A DNA stretch of 40,731 bases, taken from positions 1 through 40,731 of the IMG/VR virus record IMGVR_UViG_3300032006_000026, one strand, 5' to 3'. The translations under genes and the position numbers were made by a program. The DNA comes from a virus. This document shows, piece after piece, positions 31,683 to 37,407 of this stretch (within the stretch, counting starts at the first letter, position 1; each line of letters starts with the position of its first letter). The notes beneath the pieces were generated by a model that worked only from the letters and a program-made list of their open reading frames with translations, made no database searches and was not told the origin of the DNA.

Positions 31683-33491
31683 TTAACCACCTTTATAAAG
31701 AAGCTCAGCCATTTCATCAATTCCTCCTCCACCACCCACAATAGATGGTGTTAATGATTCTTTACCCTTTTCTGTAAAAGGAAAGGAAGATTTATCTGCT
31801 ACTTTAACAAAAATAGTTTCACCTTCAGGATCTTCATAAGATGCTTGCATAGAAACATTAGATGTTTTATTTTTAACAGAATTTACATCTAATGGAATAA
31901 TGTTTTCAGCATTACCTTTATGAACTATAGATGGTCCAGTTTTAGGAACAGGAACTGCTCCATCATCATATGTACTACCACCTTTACCACCAAAAGTTTC
32001 CATAGGACCTGAAAGTCCTCTAGGAACTAACTTTCCATCTACTTCGATTTTTGTTAGTGATGCTTTTATAGTTTTATCTGTTGTTACCTCTTCATTTCGA
32101 TTAAAGAGATGTGGAATCTCTCTAAATCTCATGTCAATACTATCATCTTTTCGATTTATTGTTTTATTCTGGTAAATATTTTTTAACCCGTCTTCCTTAT
32201 TTCCACCACTCCAAGCACCCTTCTCATCAGAAATCCATCCCTTACCAAAAAGTTGTCCAATATCAAACATATTATAAAACCTTCTCATTTGTTCTCTAAC
32301 TCTTCCATCAAATGCGGTCATCTCCTTTGCTATATTTTCTCGCACTGCTTCCTTTTGATCTTCTGGAGCAAATTGCACTCTAGCCCAGTTACTTAACAAT
32401 CTAAATGGTGTTCCAAGAATATCAAAGAAACCAGTCATTGCTCCTGTTAACCTATGAGCAACATCCGAAACTCCTGCGACTACACCCCAAAAATACTTAC
32501 GAGGATCCCACCATTTTAAATCCTTAGACTTTTCATGAGCGTCTCTTGCATAATTTGTAATCCTATCATTCAACTTCATTAAACGAGAACCACCTTCTCC
32601 AATAGCATATGCTGCTCCTGATGCAGCAGTTACTATTAAAGCACCTTTAGCAACTGCTGCCAGAGGTGCTGCTTTAGCAATACCTAATGCTTTAGTACCC
32701 CAACCAATAAGCGTAGAAGCACCCTTCTTTCCAAATACTTGAATTAAGGCTCTTTTTAATACTCTTGGTCCAATTCCATGCTTAAAAAGTCTTGTAAAAT
32801 TCTTACCAAAATCCAGAAGATTGGTTCCAAACTCATTACTTAAAGCAATCATTGCTGCAGCAAGCATCATTGTAAGATTTAAAACTGTATTCAATACTCC
32901 ACTAATTTTATCAAAAACCTCAACACCTTTGTCACCAAAAATATTCCCTACTACTCCACGAGTCCACTCAAATGCTTTATATCCCCAATGAACCATAGTT
33001 ATTAATCCATCAAGGAGTTTACCACCAAACCAAATAACAAAATCTGCTATTTTACCTATTACCCTAACAATTCCCATCACTCTAGGTAAAAATTTAAGTA
33101 ATCTAAAGGTAAACCATCCAATAATAACTTTACCTAAAAAATCTTTAATCTTATCCAAGAAACTCATCTTGGGTAATAATGGTCTAGGAGTTTCTTCATC
33201 CTCCTCACCACCATCAGGTTTTTCCTTATCTTCTTCTTGTTCTACTCTTAATTCATCTTCTTTTTGTTTTTGTTCCTTCTTCTGTGCTGCTTTATCAGCA
33301 ACAAGACTTCCTTTTAAGAATTTATCAACTTTTACTAATTTTATACTAATAGTATGAACAACATCCTTCTCATCAGAAGTTTCAGTTATTTTTTCACCAG
33401 AAGATCCCACTAAAGAAGTAGTAGGACGGACCATAAGATCTCCTCCTTTTACACCCTTTCCTAAGAGTTTATTTTTATCTACTACTGCCAT
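31683..33491 (-). CDS. Large helical tail protein, second tape-measure-like candidate (602 aa)
   Basis: An N-terminal disordered region is followed by a strongly charged coiled-coil-like stretch (about residues 64-100, KKEQKQKEDELRVEQEEDKE). Hydrophobic helices at about 115-165 (IIGWFTFRLLKFLPRVMGIV) and 200-220 (NLTMMLAAAMIALSNEF) follow, then Ala/Gly-rich helices (AAPLAAVAKGALIVTAASGA). The C-terminal third is soluble, with GKGGSTYDDGAVPVPK. Amphipathic and membrane-seeking helices are typical of tape-measure or ejected tail proteins. The adjacent 725-residue protein has the better tape-measure signature, so this may be a second internal tail protein ejected with it. The ATG shares one base with the upstream TAA (TAATG), giving direct coupling. 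Confidence 0.7.
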   Translation of the reverse strand: MAVVDKNKLLGKGVKGGDLMVRPTTSLVGSSGEKITETSDEKDVVHTISIKLVKVDKFLKGSLVADKAAQKKEQKQKEDELRVEQEEDKEKPDGGEEDEETPRPLLPKMSFLDKIKDFLGKVIIGWFTFRLLKFLPRVMGIVRVIGKIADFVIWFGGKLLDGLITMVHWGYKAFEWTRGVVGNIFGDKGVEVFDKISGVLNTVLNLTMMLAAAMIALSNEFGTNLLDFGKNFTRLFKHGIGPRVLKRALIQVFGKKGASTLIGWGTKALGIAKAAPLAAVAKGALIVTAASGAAYAIGEGGSRLMKLNDRITNYARDAHEKSKDLKWWDPRKYFWGVVAGVSDVAHRLTGAMTGFFDILGTPFRLLSNWARVQFAPEDQKEAVRENIAKEMTAFDGRVREQMRRFYNMFDIGQLFGKGWISDEKGAWSGGNKEDGLKNIYQNKTINRKDDSIDMRFREIPHLFNRNEEVTTDKTIKASLTKIEVDGKLVPRGLSGPMETFGGKGGSTYDDGAVPVPKTGPSIVHKGNAENIIPLDVNSVKNKTSNVSMQASYEDPEGETIFVKVADKSSFPFTEKGKESLTPSIVGGGGGIDEMAELLYKGG

Positions 33492-35668
33492 TATACACTA
33501 ATCCCCAATACTTTTATTTTTTGAGCAGACCTTCCACCCAATGCATCAAATTTAGGTATTTCTTTAGTAGATTTTTCCACCATCGGCTTATCTTCCATTT
33601 TATTTTTTTCTTGATTATAAGCATCTATAACTTTAATTTTATTTTTAGCAACTGGTGTTAAATCAGGTTTATTATTATCCTTATAACCAACAATTCTTCC
33701 ACGTTTGTTATAAATTGGTTCTCCTTTAGAAATTCTATCCTCTGCTTTAGGTTTAGGTGATGCCTCATATTTGTCCATGTTAACCATATCACCAACATCA
33801 CTACTTATTGGTCCTAATATACCACTGCTACCACCACTTCTTTTTTTACCACCACCAAATAATCCACCAAACCATCCACCACCTGTTTTAGGTGTGGTAG
33901 TCGATTTCCGATTTGCTATTATTTGTTTCTGGAGTGCATCTATTTCGTCCCCAATTTCATTCCATCTCTTCCTATCCTTTCTTGATAATTTACCATCAGG
34001 TCCTCTGTCCATCGCATCTCTCTCATTATCTAACTTTTGAATTCGTGCCAGTGGTCGATTATCAAAAGAATCCACCATAGCATTTGCTTCTTCTTGTGTA
34101 TATACTGTTCCACCAGTTTTAAAATGCTGAACTAAACCACCACCAGCCATTTTGGCACTAGAAGATATATCAGCACCTAAAAGATCTAGTTTAAGCTGCC
34201 CCTTGAGGTTTTCTGCAAATCTTGCATTAGGGTTTTTTGCAAAATACTTCTCCCTATCTTCTTCTGTTGTTTGACCGATTGATCCACGCATTATGGATTC
34301 ATCACCTCTTGTTTTTGTATCAAATTTAGTCTTGATACCCTTATCAAAATCTGTAAAGGTATTTGATGTTTCTTTTACTCCACCACCATAATATTCTGAA
34401 CCCATTGCTTTTGTAAGTTCCACACCTGGAGCATAAGTTAATTTCTTTTTAGGTTTCAAACCCTGCAAGGCTCGTTCTTCATTAAGATACTTAAGCATAT
34501 ATGATTCTTCTGCTTTTTTCTCTTTTGGATCAGTTACTGTACCCCTAGTATGTCCTAACTCTTCACTCATAGTTTGGACCTTACCACCTACCTTATATCT
34601 ACCCATTGTTGGTCTGTTAGTTCCACCACCAGCAGCATTCATAGACTCCATAGTATTCACACCATACTTCTGAACTGCTCCTTTAGACATGACAAACTCA
34701 CCAGGAGTTAGCATAGCAGGAACAGTATCCTTATTACCCGATCCAGGAACTTTTCCACCTTCATTATAATAATGCATTTCTTTAACTAAACCACCACCAG
34801 AAAATGCACCAGCTCCCACACTGAATAACTTAGTGAAAGCTTTACCCTTTCCACTTCCTCCAAGAAGACCACTAAGACCTTTCAGTATCTTTCCAGATGC
34901 TAATTTAGCAATGGCTGCAGTTAATTTAGGAATCAATATTGAAAGTCTTCCAACACTCCATACCACAACCTTAATTAAACCAGCCACCATCTTAGTGAAT
35001 CCAGTTCCAAATAACAAATATGCAGCCAACATTGTAGGCCACCAATCTTTAAGGAATTTAATAATACTCTTCAACTTTCCTTGATTTTGTTTATTACCCA
35101 TCCATTTCAAAATCTTAAATAAAACTCTACCAAGAAAAACCCTTCCTAAAAATTCTAATAACTTTGACCATGCACTTTTAAGTGGTTCAAGTGCTTTGGA
35201 TGCAGTTTTCTTTATTCCATCAAATACCCTAAATTCTAATTTATTTTCTTTCTTTCTTCTCTTAAACCTCTCCACCATTTTGCGGAACCAACCCTGTTGT
35301 TTTTTATCTTGCTTCTGATCTTCTTTTAAAGTTTCTACAATAGAAGTAACACTATTATTAATCTCTACTATTGAACCACCCTTTGTCCCAACAGGAGATT
35401 CTTTTCCCCCTTTGTCAAAAAACTTAGAAGTGCTTATCTTTTTCTGAGATATTTTTACTTTCTTATTAGGAGATTTCCTTTCTTCTCTTACTCTTAAAAA
35501 CTCTTCTCTTAATGCTTCTGACCTCTTATCCCCTGATCCTTTTGTAGCAGCTTCAATAGTTACAATAGCCTCCCTCAAGGCACTAAGATAATCCTCATCG
35601 GTCTCGATGTCAACCATCTCATATCCGAGATCGGAAAGTATTTTTAATGGACTGATCTTAACGGGCAT
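33491..35668 (-). CDS. Tape-measure-like tail protein (725 aa)
   Basis: A Lys-rich N-terminal half (KKTASKALEPLKSAWSKLLE, MVERFKRRKKENKLEFRVFD) is followed by hydrophobic helices (about residues 208-250, PTMLAAYLLFGTGFTKMVAG and LIKVVVWSVGRLSILIPKLT). At about 307-336 it carries GSGNKDTVPAMLTPGEFVMS, then KGAVQKYG. The D-T-V-P-A-x-L-T-P-G-E-x-V motif occurs in the C-terminal parts of many tape-measure proteins. A second Gly-rich segment with EEGxx-type repeats follows (YKVGGKVQTMSEELGHTRGT), and KYLNEERALQGLKPKK is a helical motif of unknown role. The N-terminus overlaps the 57-codon chaperone-like ORF by 11 nt, exactly where tape-measure genes usually sit. The call is well supported by motif and synteny. 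Tail length cannot be derived firmly because two tape-like genes exist. Confidence 0.78.
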   Translation of the reverse strand: MPVKISPLKILSDLGYEMVDIETDEDYLSALREAIVTIEAATKGSGDKRSEALREEFLRVREERKSPNKKVKISQKKISTSKFFDKGGKESPVGTKGGSIVEINNSVTSIVETLKEDQKQDKKQQGWFRKMVERFKRRKKENKLEFRVFDGIKKTASKALEPLKSAWSKLLEFLGRVFLGRVLFKILKWMGNKQNQGKLKSIIKFLKDWWPTMLAAYLLFGTGFTKMVAGLIKVVVWSVGRLSILIPKLTAAIAKLASGKILKGLSGLLGGSGKGKAFTKLFSVGAGAFSGGGLVKEMHYYNEGGKVPGSGNKDTVPAMLTPGEFVMSKGAVQKYGVNTMESMNAAGGGTNRPTMGRYKVGGKVQTMSEELGHTRGTVTDPKEKKAEESYMLKYLNEERALQGLKPKKKLTYAPGVELTKAMGSEYYGGGVKETSNTFTDFDKGIKTKFDTKTRGDESIMRGSIGQTTEEDREKYFAKNPNARFAENLKGQLKLDLLGADISSSAKMAGGGLVQHFKTGGTVYTQEEANAMVDSFDNRPLARIQKLDNERDAMDRGPDGKLSRKDRKRWNEIGDEIDALQKQIIANRKSTTTPKTGGGWFGGLFGGGKKRSGGSSGILGPISSDVGDMVNMDKYEASPKPKAEDRISKGEPIYNKRGRIVGYKDNNKPDLTPVAKNKIKVIDAYNQEKNKMEDKPMVEKSTKEIPKFDALGGRSAQKIKVLGISV

Positions 35669-35831
35669 TAGCTTGTTGCTGTTGCTTTAATTTTTCTTCC
35701 TCAAGGTGTGCTTGAAGTAGACCTACATAGATGTCTCGTTCCCAAGGCATCATATTTTCAATCTCTGTTAAGCTATATTTATGATACTGCATCAAAGCAA
35801 AATTTAGTTTGAAATAATCCTCCAAACTCAT
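35658..35831 (-). CDS. 57-residue chaperone-like ORF, probably expressed by -1 frameshift
   Basis: An ORF reading MSLEDYFKLNFALMQYHKYS, LTEIENMMPWERDIYVGLLQ, AHLEEEKLKQQQQANAR. The MPWERDIYVGLL core resembles the small second chaperone domain found just before tape-measure genes in many tailed phages. Its ATG has no ribosome site; the nearest GGAGG lies inside the ORF. The frame is exactly -1 to the gp26 gene and is open back through a T TTT TTC slip site near the gp26 end, so the likely product is a 301-residue gp26 fusion. The end overlaps the tape-measure start by 11 nt. Independent initiation at this ATG remains possible. In T4 the neighbouring assembly gene here is 51, but no homology to it could be judged. 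Confidence 0.78.
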   Translation of the reverse strand: MSLEDYFKLNFALMQYHKYSLTEIENMMPWERDIYVGLLQAHLEEEKLKQQQQANAR

Positions 35832-35842
35832 ATGCAGTAGGG

Positions 35843-36562
35843 CTATGCGAAAAAAGACGCTAAACCCTCCAATACAACCTCACTTTCCACTTTTGTCTTT
35901 GGATTAGTAATCTTTAAAGTATGAGATAATTTAGGCATAGTATCAAAAAATGATTCAATCTCTTTAAATTGAGTAGAATTCATTTGCTCTAAGAAATCCT
36001 TCATTTCCTTCTTAGTGCAATCAGCAGCTGCCCACACTTCTTCTTCAGTATAAATTTTATCAATACATGATGCAATCAAATCAAATGACTGTTCCATTTG
36101 ATTACCTTCTTTAAAATCAAAGTTATTTTTAATAAATTGATCAAGTGATGGATACTTCATTTCCATCATAATATTTTCATCCACTTTAATCTTATTAGTA
36201 TGGTTATCATCCTTCTGAACTTCGATTTCATCTAGGGCAATTGTTACTGGAACCTGAGTCTTATTATCATCAGGACAAATAATATTAACATCTATATCTT
36301 CTCCAACAGACTTACCACGAATATTGAGGAACAAATATTCAATATCAAATGTAGGAAGATCTTCTACTTTAATTCCTTTGCTAAGAATACAACTCTTAAG
36401 AACTGCTTTGATAGCATTAGTAATTTGTTTATTATCTTCACTTTCTAGAGCAATTACAAGAACCTTTTCTTCTTTTACAAGAAATGGTCTATATTTAACA
36501 GATTTACCTGTTGAAGGTAACTCCAACTCATAGGTCGGAGTCGCAATTTTTGGTAAAGGCAT
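35843..36562 (-). CDS. gp26: Baseplate hub protein gp26-like / tape-measure chaperone
   Basis: A 239-residue protein of the T4 gp26 baseplate family. The signature is the N-terminus PLPKIATPTYELELPSTGKS with KYRPFLVKEEKVLVIALES, followed by AIKAVLKSC, FDIEYLFLNIRGKSVGEDID and a C-terminal helical half (KEMKDFLEQMNSTQFKEIES, FFDTMPKLSHTLK). In T4, gp26 is needed for hub assembly. Its position just before the tape-measure gene and a shifted small ORF suggests it plays the part of a G-type chaperone here, an inference. The last codons are TCT TTT TTC GCA TAG, containing an in-frame slippery heptamer. A CTAAATA box lies 26 nt upstream, so it begins a transcription unit. Confidence 0.85.
   Translation of the reverse strand: MPLPKIATPTYELELPSTGKSVKYRPFLVKEEKVLVIALESEDNKQITNAIKAVLKSCILSKGIKVEDLPTFDIEYLFLNIRGKSVGEDIDVNIICPDDNKTQVPVTIALDEIEVQKDDNHTNKIKVDENIMMEMKYPSLDQFIKNNFDFKEGNQMEQSFDLIASCIDKIYTEEEVWAAADCTKKEMKDFLEQMNSTQFKEIESFFDTMPKLSHTLKITNPKTKVESEVVLEGLASFFA
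35849..35855 (-). promoter_or_regulatory. Candidate programmed -1 frameshift site T TTT TTC
   Basis: On the minus strand the gp26 codons are TCT TTT TTC GCA TAG, so X XXY YYZ = T TTT TTC is in the correct register. A -1 slip re-reads TTT TTT and continues CGC ATA GCC CTA CTG CAT ATG AGT TTG, entering the 57-codon ORF without a stop. Predicted product: residues 1-238 of gp26, six linker residues (RIALLH) and 57 residues, 301 in all. No strong downstream stem was found by eye. Confidence 0.6.
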
Positions 36563-36600: not shown

Positions 36601-37407
36601 TTATCTGGATCCCAAGAATCCTGCAGTAAATGCACCAGCAACGTCTCCAAGAAAATCATTTCCAGTCAATCTATCTACAGCAGCATCAACTATACCACCA
36701 GCTAGACCTGCTGCATTAAATCTTGCTTGTTGAGGAGCAGTAAATGCTTTACCTAGAGTTGAAGAATTTATCCCTTTAGGTTGGCTTGGAGGATAAGCAT
36801 AAGTTTTATCTAAATTTTTAACAACATACCTTATATAACTCATTGATACCGTACATTTTAATAATGAAGATGTATCATAAGAAACTGGCATAGAATTTAT
36901 TGCCAAAGGAAATGCTCTAACAAATTCATATTCCAATATATTCCCATGATCCTTTTCAAACTTTCTAACCTTCAATCCTGCGCCCATATAACTATCAGGA
37001 TATCTCATTCTATAATCATAATTAGGTTGCATTAATTGAGTGTCTTGATCAGCTTCACTAATTTGCCTCCCATTTACAATATAAGAGGTCCATTCTTCAA
37101 AAAATCTTATTGGAGTATATAATCCAGCATCAACATAAAAAATTAAATCTATTCTATCATCAAATATTCTTCTATGAACATGTTTCTCTGTTACACCAGT
37201 TCTATCATTATCAATCTCAAATGTTGCTAAATTAGATCCAGGAAGAACTGTTTCTGAACACATTAAATTAATTTTATCCTGCTTACCAACACCTTGCCAT
37301 TTATCACGAAGCGCATTAGGAATAGGTATATCCACCTCAAAATGAGAAGTGGTTGCTGGTCTTAATAAATTAGCCTTAATGTCAGATACTTTTGCTATTC
37401 GTGGCAT
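36601..37407 (-). CDS. Tail-tube-fold baseplate protein, gp54/gp19-like
   Basis: A 268-residue protein with features of the T4 gp19/gp54 tube family: HFEVDIPIPNALRDKW near the start, LMCSETVLPGSNLATFEIDN, FDDRIDLIFYVDAG, YTPIRFFEEWTSYIVNGRQI, the MRYPDSY segment, and EYEFVRAFPLAINSMPVSYD then LLKCTVSMSYIRYVV. The last two blocks are the conserved end of tube-fold proteins. T4 gp54 starts tube assembly on the baseplate and gp48 caps it; gp48 is encoded divergently at 38292. The C-terminal about 60 residues (after YPPSQPKG) are Ala/Gly-rich and extra to a plain tube protein, which favours a baseplate initiator over the major tube subunit. The upstream divergent gap is only 42 nt. Confidence 0.75.
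   Translation of the reverse strand: MPRIAKVSDIKANLLRPATTSHFEVDIPIPNALRDKWQGVGKQDKINLMCSETVLPGSNLATFEIDNDRTGVTEKHVHRRIFDDRIDLIFYVDAGLYTPIRFFEEWTSYIVNGRQISEADQDTQLMQPNYDYRMRYPDSYMGAGLKVRKFEKDHGNILEYEFVRAFPLAINSMPVSYDTSSLLKCTVSMSYIRYVVKNLDKTYAYPPSQPKGINSSTLGKAFTAPQQARFNAAGLAGGIVDAAVDRLTGNDFLGDVAGAFTAGFLGSR

Follow-up and report, generated by a model that had tools for sequence, protein, structure and literature searches.

A probable programmed −1 ribosomal frameshift joins gene 26 to a gp51-like domain just upstream of the probable tape measure gene in a T4-like virus record

The chaperone locus of IMGVR_UViG_3300032006_000026, a 40.7 kb IMG/VR virus record from a T4-like marine phage analysed over its whole length (the window), raises the question of whether a 57-codon open reading frame between gp26 and the probable tape measure gene is a small gene in its own right or the end of a longer protein that is reached by changing frame. 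The locus lies on the minus strand, in the order tube-type protein, gp26, 57-codon ORF and probable tape measure, with two overlapping frames between tube and tape measure; the tape measure assignment within this order rests on position and weak profile matches. We conclude from the sequence evidence that gene 26 and the 57-codon ORF very probably (a probability of roughly 0.93) form a tail assembly chaperone pair of the lambda G/GT type, expressed by programmed −1 ribosomal frameshifting. The main features are as follows.

36601 to 37407, minus strand: preceding gene, 268 amino acids, tail tube family (phrog_45 tail tube; PF23849, Phage_TTP_2)
35843 to 36562, minus strand: gp26, 239 amino acids, putative short tail assembly chaperone (TAC-N), of the T4 gp26/PF12322/phrog_150 family
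35849 to 35855, minus strand: slippery heptamer T TTT TTC in the zero frame of gp26, seen in the sequence and kept as T TTT TTN in 172/173 loci
35658 to 35849, minus strand: −1 extension (RIALLH plus the 57-codon ORF from 35831, stop included), putative TAC-C part of TAC-NC, by matches to phrog_634 and the end of phrog_150 and alignment to the C-terminus of T4 gp51
33491 to 35668, minus strand: next gene, 725 amino acids, probable tape measure, by position and weak tape measure profile matches of residues 264-397

The 3′ end of gp26 reads TTG GAG GGT TTA GCG TCT TTT TTC GCA TAG on the coding strand. After a −1 slip at the heptamer the reading becomes TTT TTT CGC ATA GCC CTA CTG CAT, followed by the ATG of the 57-codon ORF (35831-35658), so that six linker codons, RIALLH, join the heptamer to the ORF and gp26, linker and ORF give a virtual fusion of 301 residues. 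The end of the ORF overlaps the ATG (35668) of the next gene by 11 nt, and no Shine-Dalgarno sequence is found in the window at initiation distance from the ORF's own ATG. The first-pass annotation had proposed a heptamer in the correct register, an open six-codon linker and an ORF with no ribosome site of its own; re-reading the sequence confirmed each of these, and the positions of the gp26 end, the heptamer, the −1 ORF and the 11-nt overlap are all correct.

Homologous loci were taken from viral contigs and annotated phages and were picked by gp26 similarity only, giving 173 loci, or 134 after dereplication by shared 12-mers; a query for Aeromonas yielded no viral contigs. An in-frame T TTT TTN occurs in the last codons of gp26 at 172 of the 173 loci (N is C in 119, A in 28, T in 23 and G in 2), and the codon preceding TTT ends in T in all cases. 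By comparison, Phe-Phe pairs elsewhere in the same genes are written T TTT TTN in 1 of 141 instances (Fisher p about 7e-78, uncorrected for the relatedness of the loci; because the loci are related to each other, our p-values are descriptive). The site is thus a conserved X XXY YYZ heptamer in the correct register. With an HMM of the C-terminal domain, the −1 frame gives the best match at 172 of 173 loci; the sole miss (L088) carries T TTT TTC, and its −1 frame is open over the right length. Among the 173 loci only L090 lacks the heptamer, and it retains the −1 register and an in-frame T TTC. The check that had been suggested for the proposal, conservation of heptamer, register and open linker among relatives, was therefore passed nearly without exception, and a search for relatives with both domains adjacent but in another register returned none.

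Relatives that lack the slippery run were also sought. Four Vibrio phages (D492, BX-1, GR28A and K475) have no T6 run, but their −1 frame is open and a slip-prone tetramer, T TTC or T TTT, remains in frame. In Escherichia coli, U_UU.C and U_UU.U rank second and third among tetramers in their tendency to shift, and U_UU.U_UU.Y is one of the more efficient heptamers (PMC4066793). In the Vibrio loci without the T6 heptamer (L090, L180, L181 and L182), an ATG overlaps the gp26 stop (TAATG). These relatives possibly use tetramer slippage, or reinitiation instead. The slip site is absent from two Tevenvirinae, T4 and Salmonella phage CF-SP2; in T4, a separate gene 51 encodes the long form.

Two further observations bear on where the −1 frame is entered. 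The zero frame of the Melnitz clade is GCT AGT TTT TTT TAA, and the −1 frame has TAG immediately before TTT TTT; the −1 frame must therefore be entered on the run itself. Across the relatives, columns +3, +9 and +15 past the slip are invariant. They span the gp26 stop codon, lie upstream of the ORF's ATG and are all second positions of the −1 frame, as expected of a translated −1 sequence; the other columns after the slip are harder to read because two frames overlap there. A +1 shift was considered and rejected: in the annotated relatives checked, it is the −1 frame that encodes the domain, and the +1 frame usually meets a stop no more than a few codons from that of gp26.

Profile searches match gp26 to PF12322 (E 1e-76) and phrog_150, and the 57-codon ORF to phrog_634, the ‘baseplate hub assembly catalyst’. 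The ORF also matches positions 244-280 of phrog_150, which is the gp26 family itself; this family must therefore hold fused members. Consistent with this, the virtual fusion scores 311.6 bits against phrog_150, compared to 276.3 bits for gp26 alone, and covers positions 5-280 in one continuous stretch. T4 gp51 (249 residues, encoded by its own gene) covers positions 13-280 and also matches phrog_634, whereas T4 gp26 matches phrog_150 only up to position 235. In a multiple alignment T4 gp51 runs across the shift junction, opposite ASFFRIALLHMSLEDYFKLNFALMQYHKYSLTEIENMMPWER, and its C-terminus is aligned with the C-terminal −1 domain. The phrog_150 coverage and the junction alignment together indicate one protein in two lengths, gp26 being the short form and the fusion the long one. 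PF12322, phrog_150, phrog_634 and the alignment thus establish homology to both T4 proteins, the short gp26 and the long gp51, and on sequence grounds we assign gp26 as the counterpart of the short chaperone TAC-N and the 301-residue fusion as that of the long TAC-NC. The AlphaFold model of gp26 has a pLDDT of 86.8; its top PDB match is the HK97 tail assembly chaperone 2OB9, which is not significant (probability 0.84, E 0.76), and no sequence relatives of gp26 or T4 gp51 were found in the PDB.

The rival that survives best holds that the 57-codon ORF is a separate small gene, translated either from its own ATG or, once ribosomes have terminated at the gp26 stop, by reinitiation. There is an ATG at 35831, and most cyanophage records carry the annotation ‘gp51, baseplate hub assembly catalyst’. 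Reinitiation would also suit Vibrio and other groups, where an ATG and the gp26 stop overlap (TAATG or TGATG). We analysed starts in the −1 frame before the conserved domain in 133 dereplicated loci with the heptamer: an ATG is present in 95, only GTG or TTG in 17 and none of these in 21. As 38 of 133 loci have no ATG before the domain, 21 of them lacking GTG and TTG as well, we consider the ORF a domain and not a gene. Ribosome sites, a good example of which would speak for a separate product, are rare (the anti-SD energy is below −5 kcal/mol at 7 of 95 ORF ATGs vs 39 of 132 gp26 starts). A separate gene also leaves unexplained the fixed T TTT TTN, the constant −1 register and the conserved residues encoded upstream of the ATG. 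With an ATG here and in 95 of 133 loci, some independent initiation may occur; as an account of the locus, we regard a separate gene as very unlikely. In two loci, L084 (S-CAM4) and L094 (S-CAM1), no gene is annotated between gp26 and the next gene, the −1 domain is intact and there is no nearby ATG.

The programmed −1 frameshift appears to be accompanied by a sequence element on the 5′ side of the heptamer.

35865 to 35870, minus strand: GGAGGG, Shine-Dalgarno-like, ending 9 nt before the heptamer; probable upstream stimulator, by sequence and by codon choice and anti-SD energy in relatives

This element is 33 nt upstream of the ATG of the 57-codon ORF, too far to start the ORF. The conserved Glu-Gly that it encodes is written GAG GG in 92 of 125 loci; at other places in the genes, Glu before GG is written so in 10 of 44 cases (p 6e-9). 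Of the 33 loci using GAA, 21 continue with GGG. Over the 18 nt before TTT, anti-SD pairing has an energy of −6.96 kcal/mol, where synonymous resampling gives −5.57 (sd 0.12; z −11.5).

On the 3′ side we evaluated RNA folding; the energies are predictions, and the control was synonymous resampling in the −1 frame. The mean fold of nucleotides +2 to +47 is −9.1 kcal/mol vs −4.2 kcal/mol for the resampled sequences (mean z −2.1, SE 0.14, n 126), and the excess vanishes beyond +29. Control stretches of gp26 give z of −0.24 to −0.50, with a smaller excess (to −0.78) near the domain end. A search for one consensus stem common to all lineages found none, and the stems of different lineages are not homologous. 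P-SSM2-like phages have an 11-bp stem starting at +5, while many Kyanoviridae have a GGUCC-AUAU-GGACC hairpin at +10 in which base pairs are exchanged, for example A-U/G-C at (11,22) and C-G/U-A at (13,20); its pairing is kept in 87.5% of cells, vs 80.6% in arm-swap controls (maximum 83.7%). Two stems are predicted in the window.

35832 to 35839, minus strand: 5′ arm of a predicted outer 8-bp stem (+9 to +16), its 3′ arm at 35792-35785; common to L002, L003 and L004 only
35806 to 35828, minus strand: predicted 9-bp hairpin (+20 to +28 with +34 to +42) inside the outer stem; complete in 9/75 close relatives

The 9-bp hairpin shows compensated changes among relatives (for example, AGTTTG/CAAACT and AGTCTG/CAGACT), and the long-range outer stem is complete in 4 of 75 loci, window included. 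A different outer stem, +2 to +8 with +26 to +32, was at control level among the close relatives. The window's own fold, −15.7 kcal/mol, is modestly unusual (z about −1.69 to −1.8), and its first stem starts 9 nt past the heptamer, where 5-8 is usual; given this modest z, the claim of structure in the window rests on the relatives. Rfam returned nothing relevant. Inside gp26 there is a sub-threshold Rfam match to SNORD78 (36041-36116, 29.7 bits with a gathering threshold of 38), which we take as chance.

Across the relatives, then, both the Shine-Dalgarno-like sequence upstream and the RNA structure downstream exceed their synonymous controls, and we suggest that they likely stimulate the frameshift. 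These likely stimulatory elements on both sides of the slip site go beyond what the first-pass annotation had proposed.

They also bear on a second rival, transcriptional slippage, in which RNA polymerase slips on the T run to yield mRNAs that are one base longer or shorter, with no involvement of the ribosome. The T6 in the window is uninterrupted and eight consecutive Ts occur in the Melnitz clade (AG TTTTTTTT AA), as this explanation would have it. Six Ts are, though, a short run for transcriptional slippage; in most lineages the run is closed by C, A or G after six Ts and the codon phase is kept, and the flanking Shine-Dalgarno-like element and RNA structure suit a ribosomal event. We judge polymerase slippage even less probable than a separate gene. 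That the run and register are a functionless accident of an AT-rich genome, in which TTTTTTC does occur 15 times over the two strands of the window together, is refuted by the conservation of the heptamer beyond its Phe-Phe controls, a conservation that extends to phages of high-GC hosts (Stenotrophomonas and Acidovorax).

At the sequence level, site, register and conservation thus support a −1 slip joining the two frames, as in the G/GT class, and from them we infer that slippage occurs and that it is the less frequent outcome. Most ribosomes would read gp26 through to TAG and give the short form, TAC-N. A minority would pause with two Phe tRNAs on T TTT TTC, probably aided by base pairing between GGAGGG and the 16S rRNA 3′ end and by the RNA structure just ahead, slip one base back onto TTT TTT, bypass the TAG in the −1 frame and give the 301-residue TAC-NC. 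In lambda the short form coats the tape measure and the long form recruits tube subunits (PMC5009743). By analogy we infer the same chaperone function here: TAC-N would coat the tape measure protein, with tail tube subunits recruited by the C-terminal domain of TAC-NC. The first-pass proposal that gp26 and the ORF are the T4-type equivalent of the lambda-like chaperones is supported by the conservation and by the gp51 homology.

Lambda G/GT and the wider conserved class were described by Xu, Hendrix and Duda in 2004 (reviewed in PMC5009743). Chaperones of this class are expected to bind the tape measure protein and to be required for tails while not being part of the virion. In the window the slip site is T TTT TTC, with the conserved Shine-Dalgarno-like element and downstream structure, which sets it apart from lambda G/GT. 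The same 2016 review names T4 as the exception to the class (PMC5009743); T4 genes 26 and 51 encode homologous short and long proteins, as in the window, but they are two separate, divergently transcribed genes with no frameshift. As cited in two later papers, Vladimirov, Gautam and Davidson (Virology 2022, 566:9-15) reported both that some T4-like phages have separate short and fused long chaperone genes (PRFect, PMC10885494) and that polyT slippery sequences occur in TAC-N genes of T4-like phages (PMC12846349). By these citations, the TAC-N and TAC-NC concerned belong to the same protein families (gp26 and gp51) as those of the window. The chaperone frameshift arrangement is therefore already reported for T4-like phages, to the extent that the citing papers describe it, and the window is a further case of a known class. 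No description of the Shine-Dalgarno-like element or of the downstream stems was found in the literature searched, the 2022 original lying outside that scope. Vandenendeviridae and Andersonviridae (phage Adele) likewise have a conserved −1 shift at a polyT motif before the tape measure, argued from comparative genomics (PMC12846349); they are other phage families with another motif (GTTTTT). E. coli dnaX combines the same three parts, an upstream Shine-Dalgarno-like sequence, a heptamer and a downstream hairpin (PMC3711429), but is an unrelated gene with an A-rich heptamer, whereas the downstream structure in the group studied here varies between lineages.

The frameshift may also matter for the gene that follows. 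Overlap between the tape measure start and the end of the −1 frame is common among the relatives, with 8 nt shared at 30 loci, 11 at 20, 1 at 19 and 14 at 13. The start in the window has no Shine-Dalgarno sequence (anti-SD 0.5 kcal/mol), and those of the relatives are mixed (29 of 113 below −5 kcal/mol). With the overlap, and no ribosome site of its own here, the tape measure may be translationally coupled to reading in the −1 frame, and the frameshift may thereby set the amount of tape measure. The last base of the probable tape measure gene is also the first of a second long ORF (31683-33491, 602 amino acids; phrog_35997, without known function). The true tape measure may be either the 725-residue or the 602-residue protein. 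Upstream of gp26, the 268-residue protein is probably a gp54-type tube initiator. We offer only tentatively, and with the odds somewhat against it, the combined picture of a three-part signal, in which the Shine-Dalgarno-like element and the heptamer are nearly fixed and the downstream RNA has been replaced by unrelated stems in different lineages, together with control of tape measure amount through coupling.

A 2010 comparison found that gp51 of cyanophages reaches just about 20% of its usual length and lacks about 200 N-terminal residues (PMC3037559); the frameshift would account for this, as gp26 supplies them. The result corrects a widespread annotation error, in which many cyanophage records list a ‘gp51 baseplate hub assembly catalyst’ of ~57 residues, or nothing; the actual product at these loci is very probably a chaperone of about 300 residues made by frameshifting. 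Through the conserved flanking signals, the efficiency of the frameshift is directly testable. T4-like phages would make the same protein pair by two routes, by frameshift in most groups and from two genes in T4, which amounts to a natural experiment on the need of tailed phages for chaperones of two lengths.
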